DNA from: a virus | Direction: 5' to 3' (one strand) | DNA: 20,614 nucleotides | Virus record (IMG/VR): IMGVR_UViG_3300009474_000020 | Span: 1 to 20,614 of that record | Shown: piece by piece, positions 1 to 20,614 of the stretch | How positions within the stretch are numbered: position 1 is the first letter of the stretch | How the letters are laid out: each line of letters begins with the position of its first letter | Made by a program: the position numbers and the translations under genes | The notes under the pieces: model-generated | The model's input: only the letters and a program-made list of their open reading frames with translations | What the model was told of the DNA's origin: nothing | The model's database searches: none

Positions 1-2
1 AT

Positions 3-3000
3 ACTCAGTGGGCTGGTCGTCAGTTAATGGTTGGTCTAACCATGCCTCTGGCAATGCTTGGATCATATGCAGCAAAGGCTTTCAAGGAAATGGAAGCAGC
101 GGTAGTTAAGTTTCAGCGTGTATACGGAGATATATTTACTGATAGCGCAGCAACAGATGTTGCAGTTGAAAATATTAAAAGAATTGCAAATGAGTATACA
201 AAGTTTGGAGTTAGCGTAACACAAACAATGGAAATGGCAGCAACCGCTGCTGCAGCAGGTTTTCAAGGAACTGCGCTTAATGCTCAGGTAAGAGAAGCAA
301 ACAAATTAGCAGTTCTTGGTCAAGTTGAACAACAGCAGGCATTAGAGACAACTATTTCTTTACAGAATGCATTTGGTTTGTCGACTGAAGATCTTGCAAA
401 GAAGATCGATTTTCTTAACGCAGTTGAAAACCAGACAGTTCTTTCTATTGAAGATTTAACAATTGCAATTCCTAAAGCAGCACCAGTTGTAAGACAACTT
501 GGTGGAGACGTAGAAGATTTAGCATTCTTCCTTACAGCAATGAAGGAAGGTGGAATCAACGCATCACAAGGTGCAAACGCACTTAAGTCTGGACTTGCCT
601 CTATGATTAACCCAACCAAGAATACATCAGAGATGCTTGCTAAAATGGGTATAAATATTAACGCTGTTGTAGAATCAAATAAGGGAGATCTAAAAGGTAC
701 CGTACTTGGCTTTGCAAGAGCACTGGATGAATTAGATCCACTTAATCGTGCACGAGCAATCGAGCAACTTTTTGGAAAGTTTCAATTTGCAAGAATATCA
801 ACACTATTTCAAAACGTAGTAAAAGAAGGTTCACAGGCATCACGAGCACTACAATTGTCTGGTGCATCACTTGAAGAACTAGCAATTATCTCTGAGCGAG
901 AAATGGGAAAAATTGAAGATTCTGTTGGATTTAAGTTTCAGGCAGCAGTAGAACAGTTTAAACAAACAATTATGCCAATAGGAAAAGAATTCCTAGAGGC
1001 ACTAACACCAATTGTTAAGTTTATTGGTGGACTGTTTGAAAAGTTTAACAATCTATCAGATGGAACAAAAAAGTTTGTAACAATAGTAACAACGTTAGTA
1101 GCAGGAATTGGACCAATATTCCTTATGACATTTGGTTTGCTTGCAAATGGCCTTGCTAACTTAATTAAGTTGTTTGCACTAATTAGAGGTGGAATGGCAA
1201 AGTTAAATGGCCAAAATAAAGTTCTTGGTGGTGGATTTGATTATTTAACACAGCAGGAAATTGAAAACTTAGCATCATCAAATGCATTACATGGTTCACA
1301 TCAAAAACTTATTCAGGTATTTAATGTTGAAAGCACAGCGCTACAAAAACTTGCAGGATCATATGCAAACGCTGCTTCACAGGCACGTGCACTTGCTACA
1401 TCTTCTCCTGGGCTGTTTGCTTCTCCAGGGGCAACAACTGCGGTTGCTGGACTTCCAGGTGGAAGAACAAGACCAGTTAGAAAATATGCTGATGGAGTTT
1501 TGCAGGTACCAGGTCCAAAGGGTGCAGGAGATATTCAACCAGCATTCCTTGCTCCAGGTGAAGCAGTAATTCCAGCAGACGTAACAGCAAAGAATATTGG
1601 TTTCTTACATGCAATGATGGCTGGTAAGACTCCTGGATATATGGCTGGAAAGATTCCAGCAAGACCTAAGTTCCATGCAAAACCTGATGAAACACAGTCA
1701 GGTGCAAAGATGATTGGTATGCCAAAATCTATTGCACAAGTTACACAGTCAAGACAGATTGCTGATCGTATTGCAGAGTCAGTTCAAAAGAGTCAGTTTG
1801 GAAAGGTTCCACCAACAGATTTTGGAACATTGTTACAAGGAACTTCTGGAAGAAGTTTTCCTATTCCAAATGTAGGCGGAGTATACAGAAAGCCAAACGG
1901 AGAAGTTGTATTCGTAAAACCAGCAGTTGATGCAACATCAGCACTAGCAGAACAACGTGCAACAATTATTGCAAGAGAAGCACACGGACTTAGTGCACCA
2001 AAGCAAACAATCAAAACAATGATGGACCCAACAGATACAACTGGTAAGAGAAAGTTAATTGTACTTGAATCACCATATGATCCTAAATTAGCAGAAGCAA
2101 GTGGCAAGTTTACAAAGAAGCAAATGGTTACACAACTTGTTGCATCACTTCTTCGTGGAGACAAAGATTTATCAAAGTCAAATGTGTTTGGAAATACACT
2201 TGCAGATGTTGGTCCAGCAGGAGTATTTGGAAAGGCTTCTGGATTTAGAGACATTCAGTCTGCAATGCCTTCAATGAAGGATCAGGCAATGATTAATCTT
2301 CTTGGAGTTAAGGGCGGAGCAAGAAAAGACTTTGCTCTATCTACTGCAGACATAGCAAAGAAGATGACCCCACAAGAGTACAACTCTGCAATTAGCGGAG
2401 AGATTGCAAAGGTACTCCCAAAACTTAAAAATACTGTTGGTGGAATGAACCTTTCATCTGCAGAAGCAGCCCCATATAACGCAATGATTGCAAGACTTGA
2501 AGCAGGACAAAAAGTTAACTGGGCTGACTTCCAAAAGATACACGCATCTGCAGGATCTCCAGTAAAGAAACTTATGGCTGGTTTTATTCCAGAACTATCT
2601 CCAGTAGCAAAGAGCCAATCACAAGTTGAGATGCAAAAGTTTTTTGATTGGGCTGATAAGCAGGTAGAATCATCAAAACTAGATGGAACATTTAAGGGCA
2701 GATGGAAGAAATCAACAGGACCAGCATTCAGACAAAGTTTGATGGAAAAGATGATTTATGATCCAAATAGCAAAACATTCTGGACAAATCAAGGTGGAAC
2801 AAATGGAGTTAACCTTGAGCGAATGCAAGAAAGATTCAACTATCGTTTCGGTATTGCACCTGATCCAAAGAGTGGAAAGTATGTAAAATCTAATCTATTT
2901 AACATCAATAAATTCTTGAGCAATGTTACTTCAGGTGGAGCATCCAAGCGTGGTGGAGATATTGGTGCCAATAACTCAAAGGCAAAGATTGTATGGAATG

Positions 3001-6000
3001 ATATTAAAAAGGCTGCAGCAGATCCTGGCGGAATAAAGTCAGACAAGACAATAAGAAAGTATACAGACTTCCTTGCAAACATGAAGGATGCAGCAGGAAA
3101 TGAAACTCAGTTAGCAAAAGACTTAAAGTCAAAGGATCTTGGTGTTCGTAAGGCTGCAATGGAAAGCATCGATAAGATGTTTAAATTTGATGCATCTCAC
3201 GCACAGGCAGTTAGAGTCTATGACAGTTTAGATGATGCTGCAGCAGGTAAATCAAGACCAGCAGCAAAGTCAGAAAAATACTCTATGGGAACAATGGGTC
3301 CAGACTATAGAGTTGTAAATGAATATGTTAAAACAAATGATCCTCAGAATAAATCTAGATTTGAGAAAATTTTAGACTGGAACAATAAAAGTGGCAACCC
3401 GCTAGGTCTTAATGCATCACAAACAAGTAGTATTCAGGCTGCTATTCAGTCAATCGTAAAACAAGAGAATCACCCGTTTGAGCCACAGAACCAAAGACAT
3501 GTTAAGGCACTTGCAGAACTTGAAATAAAGGCAAGAGACATGATGACAACAAATCCATCACAGTCTAAGGGCCTATCATTCTTAAGCAAGAATCCTGGCG
3601 CATACATGAATGCAAGACTTGTTAACGAGGTAATGTCTGACAGAATTGCAGACTCATCTTGGTTTAAGAGAATGAATGCAAAAAAGATGTTTATGAATAC
3701 AGACATTCTTGATGAAAAGGGAAGACCAGTACGTGGAGGATTGGAAACTGTAAGAAAGTCAGAATATTATCGTGATCCAAAAACTGGACGATTTATTCCT
3801 TACACTGGACAGAATACAATTCCAGTATCAACTGGTAGAGTAACTGGCAAGGGAACTGAAACTAGAACTCCAGATACCACAAAGACTGGTGGAGGACCGA
3901 CAGCAACAAGATCACAGGCAAGAACATTTGCTATTAGACGTGATGCGGGAGATCCAAGGTTCCAAGGCCTAGGCACAGAATCTGGATTAAGCAAGGCAGC
4001 ACAAGGAAGAGTTACTAATGCTGTTCAGGAACAAGCACGACTATTGAAGGCAAGAAATAACCTAACCAAGCAAGAAATTAGTCAGGCTCTTTCACAGTAT
4101 AGACGAAGAGTGGTTGCTGCTGAAATTGAAAAAAGCAATAATGTTTCACAAGAAAAAAGAATGCGTGAGCAAGCAAAAGCAGAAACAGCCAAACTAACAA
4201 ATGCTAAGGATGCTGCAAAGCGAGAGGCTGTCGAAAAGAGAATGGCCCGTCAGGAAAAAGTTGGCAGATATTCAGGTGGAACAGCAGGTGCCCTTGGTGG
4301 TGTAGCAATGGGAGCAATGATGACTGGTGCCGACTCTAAGGTCACTGGAGGCCTATTTGCGGCCTCTGCACTTGCAGGCATGGCTCCAATGTTAACTAAC
4401 CCATATATTGCTGCAGGAACGGCTGTACTGGCTCTTGCTGGATCTGTATGGATTGCAGAAAAAGCCAATAAGTCAGCAGCCGAAAAAATATCAAGGTTTA
4501 CAGATGAAACATCTGCAACAACTGAAAAAATGAAGTCTATTGGAGAACTTACTGGAAAAGTCGGGGCTTCAGAACTATATGCACGAAAGAGATCCACATC
4601 AGTATCTGATAGATATACTACTGGATTTGAAAGAGGAAAGCAGCAGTTTGGTGCAACCTTTGTAGAATCAGAAACTGGTAAGTCTATTGTAGAGTCATTT
4701 ACAAAAGATATGGTGACTGGTGGAAATAATGCTGTTAAGAAAATATCTTTACAACTTGCTGCCTATGTTTCAGATGGAATAATGAGTGCAGAACAGGCCC
4801 ATTCAGTTGCAAGCCAAATTGGAATTAATTTAAATAATCAAACTGTAACTTCTCAGATAAGTGGTGAAATTCTTTCACTTATTGGTCCAGGTGGTGTAGA
4901 CCTACTTAAAGATCCGCTAACTGTAAGAATGAACTTAGTTCAAGAGCAAATTTCTAGCACATCAATGAGCACAGAGGATTATGCTGCTGCTGGAGTTCCA
5001 GTATTTGATATGGGGGCTCAGGATGATATTCAAGAGGCTGCATCCAACTACTTTGATGATTACATTGCATTGTTTACAGAAACTGGACCAGAAAGAATTG
5101 GAGCAGCACTAGGTTCATCCTTTGCTCAATCTTTCGAGTTTAATCAATCTCAGGCAGATTCATTTGCTAAATATTATGATGATCAGATATTGATATTACA
5201 AAAACAAAAGTTACAAACATCTGAGGTTTCAAAGCAAAAAGTTATAACTGATAAAATTCTTGAACTAGAAGGAAAAAGAAATTCTGGCCTAGAGGCATTT
5301 AAGAAAAACAATCAGGCAATATTAGATACCGCAAGTAAGGCTATTGGTGCACTACAAAACAGTAGTCCAGGAACAAAGGCACTTAAGACAGCCTCACGAA
5401 CACAACTATTAGACAAGTACAAGGGTGGGCCAGAAGAGTTAGCATCAGTTGTTCTTGCAGAGAAAACTAAAAAATTAGACACAGATCTAGAGATAAAGAT
5501 TAATGCTGTAGCAGGAAGTGGAATTGTCGGTCCAGACGCATTAAGTAAAATGGTTGACATGTTTGGAACAGATGCAAAGGGACAAGCAGCAATCCGCAGA
5601 AATCTAGATTTGGCAATCACAAAGCACGACCCAGGAAAAGTTCAGCAGTTGCTTCTACAACTTGGAACATTCAAAAACGAAAAAACAAGTAGAAAAATTT
5701 TTGTTGCATTAATGAAAAAAGATCCAGCAAAGTTTGATAAACTTGCATCAACAATTGCACTTATGCAAAAGATGGACACCAAGGAAATCAATTTAGAAGC
5801 ATTCTTTGAATCAGAGGATGCCATTACAAAACTAGAAGACCTTCAGTTAAAACTTGAAGAAGTCGAAAACATGCCAACTCCAATTACCACAGAAGCAATT
5901 GCTCTTATTAATACTGATGGAAATTCAAAAACTAAGGATATGAGTGCATTACTTGCTATTTGGGACCAATGGGGCAATCTTCCAGATGAAACAAAAAAGA

Positions 6001-8990
6001 CTGTTATTCAAGAGTACATTGCAATATATTCAACAATTGATGATGAAGCAGCACTTAACAGCATAAAGACTAGAAATCCAAAAGCAAGAAAAATTACACA
6101 AGCACAAATTAATGCTGAAAAAGGAAGAATGGCAGCAGAAAGAACGATGCAGGTTGTCAATCAGGATATTGCATCTGCCAAGGCTAACGGCATTGATGAT
6201 GGGTCTAAGGATGGTTCAAAGAAGGAAGATCCAATCAATGACATTCTTAGAAGACTCAAAGAGGTAAGACTTGCGTCTGTTAATGCTGCTGGTGGCATTT
6301 CAGAATTATTTAAAGCAGTCGGAGATGGCAAAAAGGTAAAGGGCGTAATTGGTGATGTATTCAACGGAATGCAACAGCAGTTAACTAAAAAGGGCTCAAA
6401 CCAACAGTTTATTGACTTCCTAACCTCTATGATTGGTGACCCAGCAGAACTTGGCAAGTACATGAAGACTGCTACAAAGGCTCCCAGCGGAAAGAACAAG
6501 GGTAAGGTTGTAGATCCATTTACTGGTAAGGTAATTCAGGGTGGCAAGGCTGGGGGTGTAGTTTTATCTGATAAGGGTAAAGCAGCACAAGCAGGGTTAG
6601 CAAAGGCTATTGGTGGAGACTACAATGCAGCACAACTTAAATCAATAACAAATGATAAAGATCGTGCCAAGGTCATGGAAAGAATTGCAACACTTGCAAA
6701 GACAAACAATAAGTTTGTTATTGATAATGCAACACTACAAAATATTTTAAATGACGAATACTATGTAACTGAAATTGCTGCTGGAAGAATTACAGACAAG
6801 GAACTTGAGACAAACACACTTCTTGCAAAGCAAGCAGAATTAAGACAAAAGATTAACGGTATTGTAACTGAAGGACTTTCTGCACAACAGGAAATTTCAG
6901 ATAAGGGTCGAATTGGTGAACTTCTAAAGTTTATGAAGGAGACTACAGATCTTCCACAACTTTCTGAGAACGCTTTGCTTGATATGATTAAGAATCCAAA
7001 TCAACTATCTGCTGCAATTTCTGCAATGGATATGTATAAGACTGGAATAGAAAAGGTTCCTGCAAGCCTACAGAAGGTTGTTGATGGACTTAATAATGTT
7101 CAGAAGAATGCTAAGATTCAGGGATACATCAATTTTGCATCACAAACAATGCCAGAGAAAATTTCTCAGGGAGCAGCAGCAGCACAAAATGTTTTAGGAG
7201 TTAAGGCACGTTTAAGAGAAAGAATGAACATGTCTGAACTCAGAAAGTATGGAACAAAGGCAAACCCTAGCATGGGAGAGACTGCCTATCAGAATGCACT
7301 AAAGGCAACTGGTGGTGCCTCATTGACAGGTGGCGGAAAGAGTTTGAGTCAGATTCAAGTTGCAAGACAAGGACTTGGATCCCAAATGAACCTTGTACAG
7401 GCAAGAGCAAATCAGATTCAAAGAGACATCTCTGCAAAAGAAGATGAACTAAATAAAGCAATAGAAGATAAGAATAAGTATTATGAAAAGTTAATCGACA
7501 CCGAAAAGGATTCTATTGAGGCAAATGAGTCAAACCTTAAGAAGCAGTTTACAGACTTAATTGATGCAAAGCAAACAGAGTCTAATAAGTTAAGCAATGA
7601 TTTAGCAATTATTAATCATCAAGAAGAAGAAATCAACAAGGTCTATGATGAAAGAATCAAGGCATTAAATGAAACACAGCAGATAAATCAAAGACTTATT
7701 GCTCAACAACAAACACAACTTGGTTTAGCAGATGCAATTACACAGGGTGACATAGCAGGAGCAGCCCGTGCTGCTCAAGAAATGCGATCACAGAGTGCAG
7801 CAGCATATGCAGAAGATACAACAAATGCTCTAACACAAGCAAGAGACAACCAGATCAAGGGCCTAAAGGGTGCAGAGTCTGGAATGACAAAGGAACAAAT
7901 TGCAGAGCGTCAGTATCAAATATCTCAAGAGATTTATAAGTTAGAAACAAATCCTGCAAGACTTGCAATAGTCGCTGCAATAGAAGCATCACAGGCTAAG
8001 ATTACTCAGTATGAAAAAGATAGATCTGTTGCACTCGATGGAATAAATGCTAAGTATGAAACAGAGGTTGCTAATTTAAATAAGGCTCTTGCTGCACAAA
8101 CAAGCATCCTTGACTCATTAGAAAAAGAAGATGCAGCCCTTGCAGCACAAGAAGCAGAACTTATTTTGATTCTTGATAGTCTAACTAGCATGGATGACCT
8201 TGCTGGAAAAACGCTACAAGATTTTGAAGATATGGTTCTTAAGGCAGAATCAATGGCCACTGCTCTAGAAGAAGATATTGTTAAGGCAATGATGGCTATT
8301 GAGGCAGACTCGGCAAGTGCCTCTGGATCTTGGACAAACATTGTGGACAAGATTAACACACTTCCAGATTCAATTACTATTCAAAGCATTATAAATGAAG
8401 TTAGAAACATTACAGAAAATATTACAAGGTATATAACAACTATAGAAACTGGTGGTGGTTCAAGTTCAAGTTCATCAAGCAGTTCAAGTTCATCAAGTAG
8501 TTCAACAACATCTACTAGTGGTTCTACTGGGTCTACAGGATCCAAAGGAACTACAGGCTCTGCATCAGAGGCAAATGCAAAAACTGCAACTACTGCCCAA
8601 AATGCAGCAGCATCCGCAGCAACTTCAGCAGCATTAAGGCAACTTACATCTGGAGGATCTCTAAGTGCATCACAGAAAAAACTTTTGGGAATGTCTTCTG
8701 GAGGGCTAGTTCCCAAGTATTTCTCTCTTGGTGGATTTGCTAAAGGAACGGACATTGTTCCAGCAATGCTAACACCAGGAGAATTTGTAATGAGCAAGTA
8801 TGCTGTAGACACATATGGAGTTGATAGAATGAAGGCAATTAATTCTGGATCAGACGCTTCCTCTTCAGTGTATAATTATGAGTTAGTAGTAAATGTTAAG
8901 TCAGATGCTAATGCAAGCGATATTGCAAACACAGTAATGGCTAAGATTAAGCAGGTAGACGATATGAGATTAAAGGGGAATAGATTTTAA
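3..8990 (+). CDS. Phage tail tape measure protein, 5'-truncated, giant multidomain
   Basis: This protein sets siphophage tail length and is ejected ahead of or with the DNA. The frame is open to the left edge, so the gene starts upstream; at least 2995 aa are visible. Residues below count from the Met at position 27. Residues ~1-270 match the classic tape-measure core (a stretch reading FLTAMKEGGI, GANALKSGL). Residues ~345-395 are a hydrophobic pair of helices. Residues ~490-530 carry a GDIQPAFLAPGE motif. Residues ~605-845 look like an inserted kinase-like domain. Residues ~1419-1482 are a Gly/Ala-rich hydrophobic region, and ~2450-2750 are long coiled coil (Glu/Lys/Gln-rich). A poly-Ser linker follows, then a terminal GTDIVPAMLTPGE motif at ~2906-2919. 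I find no cysteine in the whole visible protein. At roughly 0.15 nm per residue it would specify a tail up to ~450 nm, less if the embedded domains are globular. The stop overlaps the next start by 1 bp. Confidence 0.93.
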   Translation, partial: TQWAGRQLMVGLTMPLAMLGSYAAKAFKEMEAAVVKFQRVYGDIFTDSAATDVAVENIKRIANEYTKFGVSVTQTMEMAATAAAAGFQGTALNAQVREANKLAVLGQVEQQQALETTISLQNAFGLSTEDLAKKIDFLNAVENQTVLSIEDLTIAIPKAAPVVRQLGGDVEDLAFFLTAMKEGGINASQGANALKSGLASMINPTKNTSEMLAKMGININAVVESNKGDLKGTVLGFARALDELDPLNRARAIEQLFGKFQFARISTLFQNVVKEGSQASRALQLSGASLEELAIISEREMGKIEDSVGFKFQAAVEQFKQTIMPIGKEFLEALTPIVKFIGGLFEKFNNLSDGTKKFVTIVTTLVAGIGPIFLMTFGLLANGLANLIKLFALIRGGMAKLNGQNKVLGGGFDYLTQQEIENLASSNALHGSHQKLIQVFNVESTALQKLAGSYANAASQARALATSSPGLFASPGATTAVAGLPGGRTRPVRKYADGVLQVPGPKGAGDIQPAFLAPGEAVIPADVTAKNIGFLHAMMAGKTPGYMAGKIPARPKFHAKPDETQSGAKMIGMPKSIAQVTQSRQIADRIAESVQKSQFGKVPPTDFGTLLQGTSGRSFPIPNVGGVYRKPNGEVVFVKPAVDATSALAEQRATIIAREAHGLSAPKQTIKTMMDPTDTTGKRKLIVLESPYDPKLAEASGKFTKKQMVTQLVASLLRGDKDLSKSNVFGNTLADVGPAGVFGKASGFRDIQSAMPSMKDQAMINLLGVKGGARKDFALSTADIAKKMTPQEYNSAISGEIAKVLPKLKNTVGGMNLSSAEAAPYNAMIARLEAGQKVNWADFQKIHASAGSPVKKLMAGFIPELSPVAKSQSQVEMQKFFDWADKQVESSKLDGTFKGRWKKSTGPAFRQSLMEKMIYDPNSKTFWTNQGGTNGVNLERMQERFNYRFGIAPDPKSGKYVKSNLFNINKFLSNVTSGGASKRGGDIGANNSKAKIVWNDIKKAAADPGGIKSDKTIRKYTDFLANMKDAAGNETQLAKDLKSKDLGVRKAAMESIDKMFKFDASHAQAVRVYDSLDDAAAGKSRPAAKSEKYSMGTMGPDYRVVNEYVKTNDPQNKSRFEKILDWNNKSGNPLGLNASQTSSIQAAIQSIVKQENHPFEPQNQRHVKALAELEIKARDMMTTNPSQSKGLSFLSKNPGAYMNARLVNEVMSDRIADSSWFKRMNAKKMFMNTDILDEKGRPVRGGLETVRKSEYYRDPKTGRFIPYTGQNTIPVSTGRVTGKGTETRTPDTTKTGGGPTATRSQARTFAIRRDAGDPRFQGLGTESGLSKAAQGRVTNAVQEQARLLKARNNLTKQEISQALSQYRRRVVAAEIEKSNNVSQEKRMREQAKAETAKLTNAKDAAKREAVEKRMARQEKVGRYSGGTAGALGGVAMGAMMTGADSKVTGGLFAASALAGMAPMLTNPYIAAGTAVLALAGSVWIAEKANKSAAEKISRFTDETSATTEKMKSIGELTGKVGASELYARKRSTSVSDRYTTGFERGKQQFGATFVESETGKSIVESFTKDMVTGGNNAVKKISLQLAAYVSDGIMSAEQAHSVASQIGINLNNQTVTSQISGEILSLIGPGGVDLLKDPLTVRMNLVQEQISSTSMSTEDYAAAGVPVFDMGAQDDIQEAASNYFDDYIALFTETGPERIGAALGSSFAQSFEFNQSQADSFAKYYDDQILILQKQKLQTSEVSKQKVITDKILELEGKRNSGLEAFKKNNQAILDTASKAIGALQNSSPGTKALKTASRTQLLDKYKGGPEELASVVLAEKTKKLDTDLEIKINAVAGSGIVGPDALSKMVDMFGTDAKGQAAIRRNLDLAITKHDPGKVQQLLLQLGTFKNEKTSRKIFVALMKKDPAKFDKLASTIALMQKMDTKEINLEAFFESEDAITKLEDLQLKLEEVENMPTPITTEAIALINTDGNSKTKDMSALLAIWDQWGNLPDETKKTVIQEYIAIYSTIDDEAALNSIKTRNPKARKITQAQINAEKGRMAAERTMQVVNQDIASAKANGIDDGSKDGSKKEDPINDILRRLKEVRLASVNAAGGISELFKAVGDGKKVKGVIGDVFNGMQQQLTKKGSNQQFIDFLTSMIGDPAELGKYMKTATKAPSGKNKGKVVDPFTGKVIQGGKAGGVVLSDKGKAAQAGLAKAIGGDYNAAQLKSITNDKDRAKVMERIATLAKTNNKFVIDNATLQNILNDEYYVTEIAAGRITDKELETNTLLAKQAELRQKINGIVTEGLSAQQEISDKGRIGELLKFMKETTDLPQLSENALLDMIKNPNQLSAAISAMDMYKTGIEKVPASLQKVVDGLNNVQKNAKIQGYINFASQTMPEKISQGAAAAQNVLGVKARLRERMNMSELRKYGTKANPSMGETAYQNALKATGGASLTGGGKSLSQIQVARQGLGSQMNLVQARANQIQRDISAKEDELNKAIEDKNKYYEKLIDTEKDSIEANESNLKKQFTDLIDAKQTESNKLSNDLAIINHQEEEINKVYDERIKALNETQQINQRLIAQQQTQLGLADAITQGDIAGAARAAQEMRSQSAAAYAEDTTNALTQARDNQIKGLKGAESGMTKEQIAERQYQISQEIYKLETNPARLAIVAAIEASQAKITQYEKDRSVALDGINAKYETEVANLNKALAAQTSILDSLEKEDAALAAQEAELILILDSLTSMDDLAGKTLQDFEDMVLKAESMATALEEDIVKAMMAIEADSASASGSWTNIVDKINTLPDSITIQSIINEVRNITENITRYITTIETGGGSSSSSSSSSSSSSSSTTSTSGSTGSTGSKGTTGSASEANAKTATTAQNAAASAATSAALRQLTSGGSLSASQKKLLGMSSGGLVPKYFSLGGFAKGTDIVPAMLTPGEFVMSKYAVDTYGVDRMKAINSGSDASSSVYNYELVVNVKSDANASDIANTVMAKIKQVDDMRLKGNRF
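1842..2560 (+). other. Kinase-like domain embedded in the tape measure protein (tentative)
   Basis: This segment of the tape measure protein (residues ~606-845 from Met at 27) reads like a small HipA/PI-kinase/actin-fragmin-kinase type fold. There is a glycine-rich strand (NVGGVYRKPNGE), then VVFVKP with a candidate ATP lysine K631. The helix AREAHG has a candidate paired glutamate E651. A strand LIVLESPYD could be the hinge. The C-lobe motif GDKDLSKSN gives D714-x4-N719, the exact catalytic Asp to Asn spacing of kinases, followed by LADVGP with D727 as a possible metal ligand. The motifs are directly visible, but the fold assignment is inference. It could instead be a decayed or purely structural domain. 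Boundaries are approximate. Confidence 0.4.
8466..8501 (+). repeat. 18-bp tandem repeat coding a poly-serine linker
   Basis: Two adjacent 18-base units, TCAAGTTCATCAAGCAGT and TCAAGTTCATCAAGTAGT, differ at one base and lie in frame within a longer TCA/AGT serine-codon tract (about 8457-8506). They encode part of a run of about 15 serines followed by a Ser/Thr/Gly-rich stretch in the tape measure protein, between the coiled-coil part and the C-terminal domain. This is a flexible linker that could gain or lose units by replication slippage without a frameshift. Confidence 0.8.
8972..8978 (+). promoter_or_regulatory. Shine-Dalgarno AAAGGGG for the Dit-like gene
   Basis: AAAGGGG lies 11 nt before the ATG at 8990, inside the 3' end of the tape measure gene. 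It is one of only a few strong ribosome sites in the window. It supports independent initiation at the ATG that overlaps the tape measure stop as TAATG. Confidence 0.6.
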
Positions 8991-17432: not shown

Positions 17433-17740
17433 TGGCAGAACGCAAAGACCGAATGGCTTTGCTTTCAAGATACAGCAAGTATCATACCGCAAGGTACGAA
17501 TCAAAGCCATCCCTTAATCTTAATGTAGAGCAATGGGCATCAGATGCACTGGTAGAGTCATACGGTATATCAGGTTGTTACGATATACTTGAGTATTACT
17601 TTTTAGTTTCAGAAAATCCATCATGGAACTACTTTGCATATAATGCAGAGAAAATACTACAAGCACAAAAAGATAAAAAGAAAGACGATGAAGAGAGAGC
17701 AGTTCGTAGACAAATGGCAAAGGAGTGGTTAAGTGAATAA
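17432..17740 (+). CDS. Small unknown protein directly upstream of the helicase
   Basis: This 102-aa, charged, mostly helical protein has two parts. Residues ~1-70 hold a segment with aromatic residues (GCYDILEYYFLVSENPSWNYF). Residues ~72-102 form a highly basic/acidic helix rich in Lys, Asp, Glu and Arg (LQAQKDKKKDDEERAVRRQM). It starts on a TAATG overlap, and its end overlaps the helicase start by 8 bases. That tight coupling makes a helicase partner or loader a reasonable guess, but no loader motif (AAA+ or DnaD-type) is visible. Confidence 0.55.
   Translation: MAERKDRMALLSRYSKYHTARYESKPSLNLNVEQWASDALVESYGISGCYDILEYYFLVSENPSWNYFAYNAEKILQAQKDKKKDDEERAVRRQMAKEWLSE
17719..17725 (+). promoter_or_regulatory. 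Shine-Dalgarno AAAGGAG supporting the helicase GTG start
   Basis: AAAGGAG lies 7 nt before the GTG at 17733, inside the preceding gene. It makes GTG the likely initiation codon, with the start overlapping the upstream stop as GTGAATAA. Confidence 0.7.
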
Positions 17741-18959
17741 TACAGAGGCAAAACTAATCTCCGCAGTTTTAAGTGATAAGCAGGTGCACGTTCTTCTGCA
17801 AGCAAATGTTGATAACCTTCTTAGAACTCATACAGATGTGTGGAACTTCATCAGAAATTATTTTGAGCACAACAGTTCTGTGCCACCAGTAAACCTTGTT
17901 GTAGAAAAGTTTCGTGACTTTCAACCAGTCGATGGTGTAGGTGCAACTAAGCATCACTTAGAAGAACTTCAAACTGAGTATTTAACCGACAGCCTAAAAG
18001 ACATTCTTAGGTCTGCAGCAGGTGACGTACAACAGGGAGAAGGCAACAAGGCTTTAGAAAATCTAATTACTCAAACATCAGAGTTAAAGAAAAATACTTC
18101 CGCAATTCGTGATATCGATGTAACTGATCTAGAGTCAGCAGTAGCATACTTTGAACATGTGAAAGAGCAACAGGCTTTGGGACATGTTGGAATAAAAACA
18201 AATCTTCCAGGGTTTGACAACTATCTTCCATCTGGAATCATGCCAGGACAACTAGGGGTTTTTCTTGCATATCCTGGTATCGGAAAGTCTTGGATGGCAC
18301 TGTACTTCGCTGTACAGGCCTGGAAGCAGGGTAAGACACCACTTGTAATCTCTCTTGAGATGTCAGAGACAGAGGTACGTAACCGTGTCTTTACAATTAT
18401 GGGTGAGGGACTTTGGTCTCACCGTAAACTTTCAAATGGTGAGGTTGAGATAGAAACGCTTAAGATGTGGCATGCAAAGCATCTTCAGGGCAAGCCAGAG
18501 TTTCACATTATCTCTAATGATCAGGGTGGAGAAATTAACCCATCTGTTCTTCGTGGAAAGATTGATCAGTACAAGCCAGACTTTGTAATCGTTGACTACC
18601 TTCAGTTGATGGCTCCTAATCAAAAATCAGATAACGAAACGGTACGAATGAAGAACCTTTCAAGAGAACCTAAACTAATGGCTATTGGAGAAGAGGTTCC
18701 TATTATTGCTATTTCATCAGCAACTCCAGATGACGTAAATGATCTTAGTGGAGTCCCAACACTTGGGCAAACCGCTTGGTCAAGACAGATTGCTTATGAT
18801 GCTGACTGGGTTATTGCACTTGGTCGTGGAACAAATAGTGATGTTATTGAGTGTGCTTTCCGTAAGAACCGTAATGGATTTATGGGGGATTTCTTGGTAC
18901 AGGTTGATTTTGACAAGGGCTATTACAGATATAAAGATTTTGAAGATAGGACGGTATAA
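17733..18959 (+). CDS. Replicative DNA helicase, DnaB-like
   Basis: This 408-aa hexameric-type helicase unwinds DNA at the phage fork. An N-terminal helical domain (~1-150) precedes the RecA-like ATPase core. Walker A is AYPGIGKS (K185, S186), with Ala in place of the usual first Gly. Motif LVISLEMS follows. Walker B is FVIVDYLQLM (D288). The later WSRQIAYDADWVIALGR and FRKNRNGFMGD correspond to the C-terminal DnaB motifs, including the KNRNG segment. The DnaB motif normally reading 'VPVIALSQ' is here VPIIAISSAT, so the conserved glutamine that senses the ATP state is absent (S329). Length suits phage DnaB enzymes. The GTG start is backed by a strong ribosome site. A TATAAT box overlaps the stop. 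Confidence 0.9.
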   Translation: MNNTEAKLISAVLSDKQVHVLLQANVDNLLRTHTDVWNFIRNYFEHNSSVPPVNLVVEKFRDFQPVDGVGATKHHLEELQTEYLTDSLKDILRSAAGDVQQGEGNKALENLITQTSELKKNTSAIRDIDVTDLESAVAYFEHVKEQQALGHVGIKTNLPGFDNYLPSGIMPGQLGVFLAYPGIGKSWMALYFAVQAWKQGKTPLVISLEMSETEVRNRVFTIMGEGLWSHRKLSNGEVEIETLKMWHAKHLQGKPEFHIISNDQGGEINPSVLRGKIDQYKPDFVIVDYLQLMAPNQKSDNETVRMKNLSREPKLMAIGEEVPIIAISSATPDDVNDLSGVPTLGQTAWSRQIAYDADWVIALGRGTNSDVIECAFRKNRNGFMGDFLVQVDFDKGYYRYKDFEDRTV

Positions 18960-18967: not shown

Positions 18968-19294
18968 ATGGCAAACTATCATCACAAGCCCATAAAGAAG
19001 TTCTATTTAGATGGAGTCATCCATGATGAATCAGCCATAGGCAGACTAAAGTTAGAATATATACGCTTATTGATATCAGAAATGAAACTTAGTGGATATG
19101 TACCAAGATTTGACATAGAGCCAGATTTTACTATAGACTATAATGAAAGAAAAAGAAATTTTGATTTTGCATTAACAGTACACGGAATACACGTAGGAAG
19201 AAAGCAGAGTGAATGGATCGCAGGGATAGACGGCAACAAGCCAATATATACACAAAAGAACAAATCAAACGAGTTCTCTCAGGAGCAGGTATAA
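18968..19294 (+). CDS. Unknown protein between helicase and primase
   Basis: This 108-aa protein is not recognised. It is soluble, with a helical middle (RLKLEYIRLLISEMKLSGYV) and aromatic/acidic strands after it (FDIEPDFTIDYN, then FDFALTVHGIHVGRK). It has no cysteine pair or membrane segment. It starts 8 nt after the helicase stop without a ribosome site but 7 nt after a TATAAT box. Its last 82 bases overlap the primase gene in another frame. Its lodging between helicase and primase suggests a replisome role, which is only inference. An ATG at 18961 in another frame stops after 21 codons and was rejected. Confidence 0.6.
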   Translation: MANYHHKPIKKFYLDGVIHDESAIGRLKLEYIRLLISEMKLSGYVPRFDIEPDFTIDYNERKRNFDFALTVHGIHVGRKQSEWIAGIDGNKPIYTQKNKSNEFSQEQV

Positions 19295-20157
19295 CAGTTG
19301 AGTCAGAAGTTGATTCAGACTATATAATTTTTTGCCCATTTCACAACAACAACAGAACACCTGCTGGAGAAGTAGACAAATCAACTGGTAAATTCTTTTG
19401 TTTTTCCTGTCATCATATTACAGACCTTATAGAGTTGATAATGCATACAAGCAATAGAACCTATTTTGAGTCAATTAGATTTATTAAAAGCAAAGAGAAA
19501 GAAGGAAACCTAGAGCAAGATATAAATAAGGCTCTTTATCAAAAACCAGAATTTACTCCTTTTGACGAGTTGATTTTAAAAAGACTTTATAACAACCTGC
19601 TCTCTTCAGACAGAGCAAAGGATTATTTTAATTACAGAAAGATAACAAATGGTTCTTGGTCAAAGTTTTTTCTTGGATATTCAGAAAAGCAAGATATGGT
19701 AACAGTTCCAGTTCATAGTCCAGATGGAATGCCTCTAGGTTTTGTTGGTAGATCTATCGAAGGAAAAGAGTTTAAGAATACACCAGGACTACCAAAAGCA
19801 AAAACATTGTTTAATTTACACAGAGTAAAGACGGCAGATCGTGTATATGTTGTAGAGTCATCATTTGATGCTATTAGACTTGACCAGTGTGGACTATCTT
19901 CAGTTGCCACACTTGGATCAAATGTTTCAAACATACAGATAGAATTACTTCAAAAATATTTTAATGATATAATTGTTATTGCAGACAACGATGAAGCAGG
20001 TGGAAACATGAAGACTAAGATAATTGAAAAACTTGGGTCTCGTGTTTCTGTAATAAATTTAGATAGCAAGTATAAAGATATTGGCGATATGGATGATTCC
20101 TTGATCTCAAACTTACAAACAAACTTTGTAGAAGATATGGTAGGAATGCTTAAATGA
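19213..20157 (+). CDS. DNA primase, DnaG-like (CHC2-type zinc finger + TOPRIM)
   Basis: This 314-aa primase makes RNA primers at the phage fork. The N-terminal zinc finger has C41-P-F-H44 and C63-F-S-C66, the CPFH / CFSC ligands typical of phage DnaG. The TOPRIM domain has E215 in VYVVESSFDA and D258/D260 in VIADNDEAGG, the metal-binding acidic residues. It is far shorter than bacterial DnaG (~580 aa) and lacks a clear C-terminal helicase-interaction domain. The helicase contact must lie elsewhere or on another protein. The ATG at 19213 is the only in-frame start before the zinc finger. AGGAAG lies 12 nt upstream. The 82-bp overlap with the preceding gene is unusually long for this genome. 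The stop overlaps the next start as ATGA. Confidence 0.9.
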   Translation: MDRRDRRQQANIYTKEQIKRVLSGAGITVESEVDSDYIIFCPFHNNNRTPAGEVDKSTGKFFCFSCHHITDLIELIMHTSNRTYFESIRFIKSKEKEGNLEQDINKALYQKPEFTPFDELILKRLYNNLLSSDRAKDYFNYRKITNGSWSKFFLGYSEKQDMVTVPVHSPDGMPLGFVGRSIEGKEFKNTPGLPKAKTLFNLHRVKTADRVYVVESSFDAIRLDQCGLSSVATLGSNVSNIQIELLQKYFNDIIVIADNDEAGGNMKTKIIEKLGSRVSVINLDSKYKDIGDMDDSLISNLQTNFVEDMVGMLK

Positions 20158-20447
20158 AATTTAAAACACAGTGGCTAGAAGCCCTAAAGAGTATGAGACA
20201 CAAAGAGTATTGGAATAAATCTAATACTGTAGAATTCTTTGCTTTTATGACAAAGATTGCAATTATTTTTCCAGGACTTTTATTAGGCAAACAGTTTTGG
20301 TGGCTGTATATTTTTGCTCTCATGTCTAGCGCTTCTTTGATTTGGTCATCAACCGTAAAAACTTTGCCAACAATCATATGGTTTAATATTTTGTGGTGTG
20401 TTCTTGCATCACTCTCAATTGCCAAGCACTTTGGTTTAATCCTATGA
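20154..20447 (+). CDS. Small multi-spanning membrane protein
   Basis: This 97-aa protein begins with a basic, amphipathic cytoplasm-type N-terminus (MKFKTQWLEALKSMRHKEYW). Hydrophobic stretches follow at about residues 27-44 (FFAFMTKIAIIFPGLLLG), 47-64 and 70-90 (PTIIWFNILWCVLASLSI), so two to three transmembrane helices are likely. Positive charges early suggest an N-in topology. No family is recognised. It is coupled by ATGA overlap to the primase before it and to the halogenase after it, with AGGA 8 nt before its start. A role with the halogenase, such as anchoring it or handling its substrate, is inference. A holin was considered but is not supported. Confidence 0.65.
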   Translation: MKFKTQWLEALKSMRHKEYWNKSNTVEFFAFMTKIAIIFPGLLLGKQFWWLYIFALMSSASLIWSSTVKTLPTIIWFNILWCVLASLSIAKHFGLIL

Positions 20448-20614
20448 ACATAGTTGTTTTAGGCGGAGGAACTGCTGGATACATTGCTGCACTTTCTTTA
20501 AACAAAAAAGTTTCAGGTGCTAGGGTTGTAGTTGTTGACAGCAGCAAGTATGGACCAATTGGTGTCGGTGAGGGTACAACATTAAATTTTTCAAGATTAC
20601 TAAAAGAACTAGAT
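20444..20614 (+). CDS. Flavin-dependent tryptophan-halogenase-family protein, 3'-truncated
   Basis: Only the first 57 codons lie in the window. MNIVVLGGGTAGYIAA is the GxGxxG dinucleotide (FAD) motif in the form typical of tryptophan halogenases, whose usual sequence is GGGTAGW. The downstream segment PIGVGEGTT matches the family's VGEAT signature near the flavin site. Family members use FADH2, oxygen and halide to halogenate tryptophan or related aromatic substrates; the substrate here is unknown. The catalytic lysine and the WxWxIP motif would lie beyond the window. The start is fixed by ATGA overlap with the membrane-protein stop; no strong ribosome site is seen. Alternative: another FAD-dependent oxidoreductase with a similar start. 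Phage-encoded halogenases have been described in a cyanophage. Confidence 0.8.
   Translation, partial: MNIVVLGGGTAGYIAALSLNKKVSGARVVVVDSSKYGPIGVGEGTTLNFSRLLKELD

Follow-up and report, generated by a model that had tools for sequence, protein, structure and literature searches.

A flavin-dependent halogenase gene in an actinophage replication operon and its recurrent pairing with a small membrane protein

In this study, we analyzed a stretch of viral DNA of 20,614 nucleotides (IMG/VR record IMGVR_UViG_3300009474_000020; hereafter the window), which ends within a gene for a flavin-dependent halogenase (FDH). Comparison with related contigs confirmed, at the level of sequence, that this is a real FDH gene, with its catalytic residues intact in a sister contig. 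The window FDH alone is a further member of the phage FDHs already known from VirX1, HTVC008M and DSL-LC01. The new aspect of the window is the pairing of the FDH with TM97, a membrane protein; the pairing is recurrent, and no prior description of it was found among the open-licence papers searched. TM97 is a candidate partner of the FDH, which we regard as likely but unproven.

The halogenase gene and its continuation in relatives

The FDH frame opens with the ATG at 20444 and reaches the window end at 20614 without a stop, encoding 57 aa (MNIVVLGGGTAGYIAALSL...IGVGEGTTLNFSRLLKELD). These residues matched Pfam Trp_halogenase (PF04820) over profile positions 1-57 with 46.2 bits (E 3.8e-12; cut-off, 21 bits), and the runner-up family, FAD_binding_2, was just 0.4 bit over its own cut-off. 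GGGTAG at residue 7 and GVGEGTT represent the GxGxxG flavin-binding and GVGE[AGS]T motifs, and the earlier note, made from the window sequence alone, had rightly recognized halogenase signatures at this N-terminus.

That note had also proposed extending the gene in the 3' direction. A sister contig, IMGVR_UViG_3300009470_000199 (L002), identical to the window at 99.98% (2 mismatches in 9,559 nt), lengthens the FDH without interruption to 392 aa, with the frame still open at the contig end; an exact-match scan for the last ~110 aa of the window FDH recovered this same contig alone. Beyond the window, L002 encodes the catalytic lysine (Lys72, in VKTGIKFTNW, aligned with SYKMAIKF of Thal), the WxWxIP motif (GWCWKIP, W272) and the catalytic glutamate (Glu345, within EPLEAT). 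Lys72 is the counterpart of the catalytic Lys79 of PrnA and Thal. None of the outcomes that the earlier note had named as refuting the FDH reading was seen in L002. The L002 protein matched Trp_halogenase with 291 bits (profile 1-369) and PHROG 2928 'tryptophan halogenase' with 287 bits, and the solved structures of Thal, PrnA, RebH and VirX1 (PDB 6qgm) matched it with E 9e-34 to 4e-47. A complete FDH of 505 aa with 46% identity was found in the same gene order in a contig of 115,201 bp (L003/G002), where the catalytic lysine and a WAWKIP motif are present and the gene lies after a 97-aa ORF (TM97) and before the genes for SSB and DNA polymerase III alpha. In addition, purifying selection was evident in one cluster of related phage FDHs (median pN/pS 0.15).

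Replication operon and phage identity

The FDH gene follows genes for DNA replication and TM97 on the same strand (Table 1). Primase and TM97 overlap by ATGA (ATG 20154, TGA 20155-20157), as do TM97 and the FDH (ATG 20444, TGA 20445-20447), so the ATGA coupling back to a DnaG primase described earlier is right at both junctions, and the position in the replication operon supports the accompanying view that the FDH belongs to the phage operon and is no stray host fragment.

Table 1. Coordinates of the FDH gene and the genes preceding it in the window
Feature	Position	Strand	Evidence or remark
DnaB-type replicative helicase	17733..18959	+	PF03796; backbone marker for the survey of relatives
108-aa conserved ORF, PHROG 17515	18968..19294	+	
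DnaG-type primase	19213..20157	+	CHC2 zinc ribbon PF01807 and Toprim PF13155; PHROG 47
TM97, 97-aa membrane protein	20154..20447	+	Aligned family, AF2 helices, FDH adjacency and co-occurrence; ATGA-coupled to FDH
5' end of FDH gene, 57 codons	20444..20614	+	Pfam PF04820; expected full length about 505 aa

The nearest cultured relatives of the window DnaB are from Streptomyces phages (38-39% identity), and the minor tail protein is likewise nearest to Streptomyces phages. Streptomyces phage Evy (Stanwilliamsviridae, Samistivirus) has the order DnaB, primase, DNA binding protein and DnaE, as in the window's clade, and the actinobacterial marker WhiB was present in 13 of 19 records, namely the 115-kb relative and 12 of 18 further ones. 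The window phage is best read as a large actinophage of a Stanwilliamsviridae-like, WhiB-carrying clade. Since actinophages carrying WhiB make up a major group in freshwater (PMC6802176), we infer an aquatic, probably freshwater habitat. The tape measure protein (window positions 1-8990, at least 2,995 aa, PF10145) contains a region at residues ~620-790 that, on visual inspection, resembles an enzyme-like domain embedded in the protein; the sole Pfam match was PhageMin_Tail.

The halogenase and TM97 as an optional cassette

We compared the primase-to-SSB interval in 65 contigs, comprising the best DnaB matches that span it plus L003. In 64 of these listed contigs the gap measures 27-35 nt, and FDH and TM97 are both absent there; the exception is L003, where 1,811 nt carry both. 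The FDH is optional, because 64 of the 65 listed relatives pass straight from primase to SSB, and it is an accessory of the window's phage clade, outside its replication machinery.

Association of TM97 with halogenases

Viral contigs contain about 500 relatives of TM97. Among the best 80 TM97 loci, the FDH abuts TM97 in 49, with junctions of -7 to +12 nt; 44 of these have FDH then TM97, and five have the window's arrangement, TM97 then FDH. The remaining 31 had no FDH within the fetched stretch, and nearly all are ordered primase-TM97-SSB. Four such primase-TM97-SSB contigs carry an FDH elsewhere (G005 80 kb, G007 51 kb, G008 108 kb, G009 34 kb), and the five tested TM97 contigs without FDH are fragments of 16-40 kb. 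Selection by DnaB alone gave 18 contigs of 40 kb or longer, of which three had an FDH with adjoining TM97 and 15 had neither (exact p 0.0012), and throughout the tested contigs of that size in the window's clade both genes were present or both absent, with no exceptions; these TM97-FDH counts overstate independence, since G007 and G008 are almost duplicates of each other and related contigs inherit the linked cassettes.

Many phage FDHs, including VirX1, lack TM97, and many have neither TM97 nor its wider family TM116 nearby. In a tree of 48 FDH proteins, those with the window's arrangement grouped together (92/76), nested in a broader clade that includes HTVC008M, and TM97-linked FDHs were also found in the P-SSM2-type clade and the VirX1 clade. 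TM97-linked FDHs therefore occupy several deep clades, and the FDH-TM97 arrangement alone forces at least four changes on the tree; TM97 persists while its FDH partners differ.

Several side observations were made around the FDHs. About four distinct halogenase genes lie in one phage contig of 140,720 bp (G004, L005), including a tandem pair of short copies near 97-100 kb. Short halogenase-like paralogues (~393-398 aa) stand beside a full-length FDH at L015:8238, L016:8787, L054:8780, L057:8498 and L008:2895; they have EPIS for EPLE and GWMFEIP, and perhaps form a distinct subfamily. In L210, L212, L255, L258, L259 and L260, which have the order FDH then TM97, one or two tiny DUF2061-like membrane proteins (66-83 aa) precede the FDH, and a family of ~240 aa with weak similarity to DUF6065 is scattered beside FDH and TM97 (L166:5991-6707, L198:2404-3129, L255:5554-6249).

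TM97 and the TM116 superfamily

In the AlphaFold2 model of TM97, a short helix at the N-terminus is followed by three long hydrophobic ones at 22-44, 49-65 and 72-92 (pLDDT 73). About half of the 97 columns of the TM97 subfamily are invariant, and comparison of the window with other contexts gave pN 0.10-0.16 and pS 0.70-0.94; with pN low relative to pS, TM97 is therefore old and strongly constrained, and has not recently moved. TM97 had no match in Pfam, PHROGs or 50,697 phage records, and cellular homologues were not confirmed in genome-contig scans, which detect exact short peptides only. Foldseek searches returned nothing significant, all matches lying above E 1, with weak recurrent matches to three-helix carriers (SemiSWEET, mitochondrial pyruvate carrier and phage PnuC). 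These matches and an LP..I..N resemblance prompted the idea of a SemiSWEET/PQ-loop-like transporter, which was rejected, as hhalign against a profile of retrieved PDB sequences and a hand-written consensus scored 12.7 compared with a shuffled mean of 11.1 and maximum of 19.8. A P2X receptor profile match (E 0.06) was taken as chance.

TM97 is homologous to a wider family of about 116 aa, TM116, with the core YWx3NxVE, PGL, WWL, LIW, KxLP and FN. TM116 is abundant in contigs judged T4-like by gene content only, with at least 594 confirmed relatives in highly varied gene contexts (L266-L345), and the TM116 queries tested had no match in Pfam, PHROGs or phage records. An FDH was present in 6 of 18 T4-like TM116 contigs and within 6 kb in 12 of 80 TM116 loci, which ruled out the idea that the family is restricted to FDH-bearing phages in general. 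Among the tested contigs of at least 40 kb, the TM97 subfamily is confined to FDH-bearing ones; the wider TM116 superfamily also occurs without FDH. As this wider TM97/TM116 superfamily is common in T4-like contigs that lack FDH, its basic function need not involve halogenation.

Discussion

FDHs convert FADH2 and O2 to a flavin hydroperoxide, which turns halide into HOX, and HOX reaches the Lys/Glu site by a tunnel (PMC8407142). The 18 phage records examined contained no flavin reductase of family PF01613, and reduced flavin is therefore probably supplied by the host; by contrast, a flavin reductase gene adjoins the FDH on a bacterial plasmid. The YHG signature in the C-terminal part marks the binding of free tryptophan in halogenases acting on it (PMC8269204). 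It is absent from the complete homologue P0002, the window lineage's own C-terminus lying beyond the contig ends, which makes free tryptophan an unlikely substrate and points to another, possibly bulky one. Several related phage FDHs neighbor 2OG-Fe(II) oxygenases, an Asp/Asn hydroxylase or a sulfotransferase, which the window FDH does not; such neighbors suggest that those related FDHs take part in tailoring a larger molecule. To our knowledge, no natural substrate has been established for any viral halogenase. Across independent lineages, the surroundings of phage FDHs repeatedly include 2OG-Fe(II) oxygenases, Asp/Asn beta-hydroxylases, a sulfotransferase and DUF6065-like proteins (L209, L210, L034, L251, L253 and L260).

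We lean, with restrained confidence, toward a functional FDH of a Stanwilliamsviridae-like actinophage, whose gene entered the primase-SSB interval together with that of TM97, and toward the mechanism that would go with it. Following known FDH chemistry, host-supplied FADH2 would react with O2 and halide to give HOX, which would pass to Lys72/Glu345 and halogenate an electron-rich aromatic group. Less surely, the substrate would be a bulkier or membrane-associated molecule of host or phage instead of free tryptophan, and TM97 might dock the FDH at the host membrane, or move substrate or halide across it.

The main competing explanation is that the FDH is real and acts by itself, whereas TM97 is a small phage membrane protein with no link to it that occupies the same accessory slots and might serve, for instance, in superinfection exclusion or the timing of lysis. 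VirX1 reportedly works alone in vitro, TM97 is missing from it and from other FDHs of cultured marine phages, TM116 homologues occupy many FDH-free contexts, and accessory slots in these phages gather unrelated genes. Yet such independence fits poorly with the all-or-none co-occurrence in the window's clade, which holds even where TM97 and FDH are kilobases apart, with the two genes touching or overlapping whichever comes first, and with the pairing of TM97 with FDHs of several deep clades; we consider this explanation credible, though on balance probably wrong.

It is improbable that the gene encodes a PF04820 flavoprotein that has lost halogenation and hydroxylates or otherwise oxidizes its substrate instead. 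Some relatives of the same arrangement do show a relaxed WxWxIP (GWSFQIP in L222, GWTFEIP in L235), and the lack of a phage flavin reductase would suit such an enzyme, but the window lineage keeps GWCWKIP, Lys72 and Glu345, and the lysine is kept in 72 of 72 aligned FDH representatives. As for an assembly chimera or a decaying host fragment, the gene is truncated at the contig end in the window and again in the sister record; however, that independent record has the same junction, the architecture with ATGA coupling recurs in five further relatives, there are no stop codons, and the complete gene in the 115-kb relative already refutes this explanation, whose probability is close to nil.

More speculatively, and with more doubt than belief, phages of aquatic actinobacteria may share a two-component, membrane-linked halogenation, in which interchangeable FDHs would be combined with one slowly evolving three-helix protein uniting enzyme, substrate or halide at the host membrane during infection. 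One strongly conserved membrane partner recurring with distant FDHs would narrow the search to the membrane, and FDH and TM97 form a testable pair, a tangible starting point for asking what viral halogenases are for. In addition, viral FDHs are common outside cyanophages, in replication operons and accessory regions alike.

Comparison with known systems

FDH homologues have been reported in 20 of 153 cyanophage genomes (PMC10452541), and one in the metagenome-assembled actinophage DSL-LC01 (PMC10611076). The earlier note had taken the window gene for a second lineage of viral halogenase, in a non-cyanobacterial siphophage; the lineage is supported, but it is not new, as HTVC008M and DSL-LC01 (PMC10611076) precede it. 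The roles that the note suggested, modification of a metabolite, a signal or a toxin, were neither favored nor disfavored by the present data.

Stanwilliamsviridae such as phage Evy share with the window the replication gene order and related DnaB and minor tail proteins; unlike the window, Evy has no FDH and no TM97 separating primase from DNA binding protein. Actinomycetia phage DSL-LC01, from a lake (PMC10611076), resembles the window in being a WhiB actinophage with an FDH homologue, ORF137, but this protein has 27% identity to the complete homologue, Asp in the catalytic Glu column and WVSKIP in place of WxWxIP, and the genome lacks TM97. The tryptophan halogenase of Pelagibacter phage HTVC008M shares the window's large FDH clade (99/96 in a 16-row set) and is the closest cultured-phage match to the complete homologue (36% identity), whereas HTVC008M itself is a T4-like myophage in which the FDH adjoins phytanoyl-CoA dioxygenase and terminase genes, and TM97 is absent. 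VirX1 of cyanophage Syn10 is, like the window FDH, phage-encoded, with the catalytic Lys/Glu and the tryptophan motif (WVWNIP in VirX1); VirX1 is not a free-tryptophan enzyme, and the window FDH is probably not one either. In contrast to the window gene, the VirX1 gene lies in a T4-like cyanophage region without TM97, and the window FDH falls outside the VirX1 clade across a deep separation (branch 98/96), the TM97-linked FDHs of L166, L198 and L209 being closer to VirX1 than the window FDH is.
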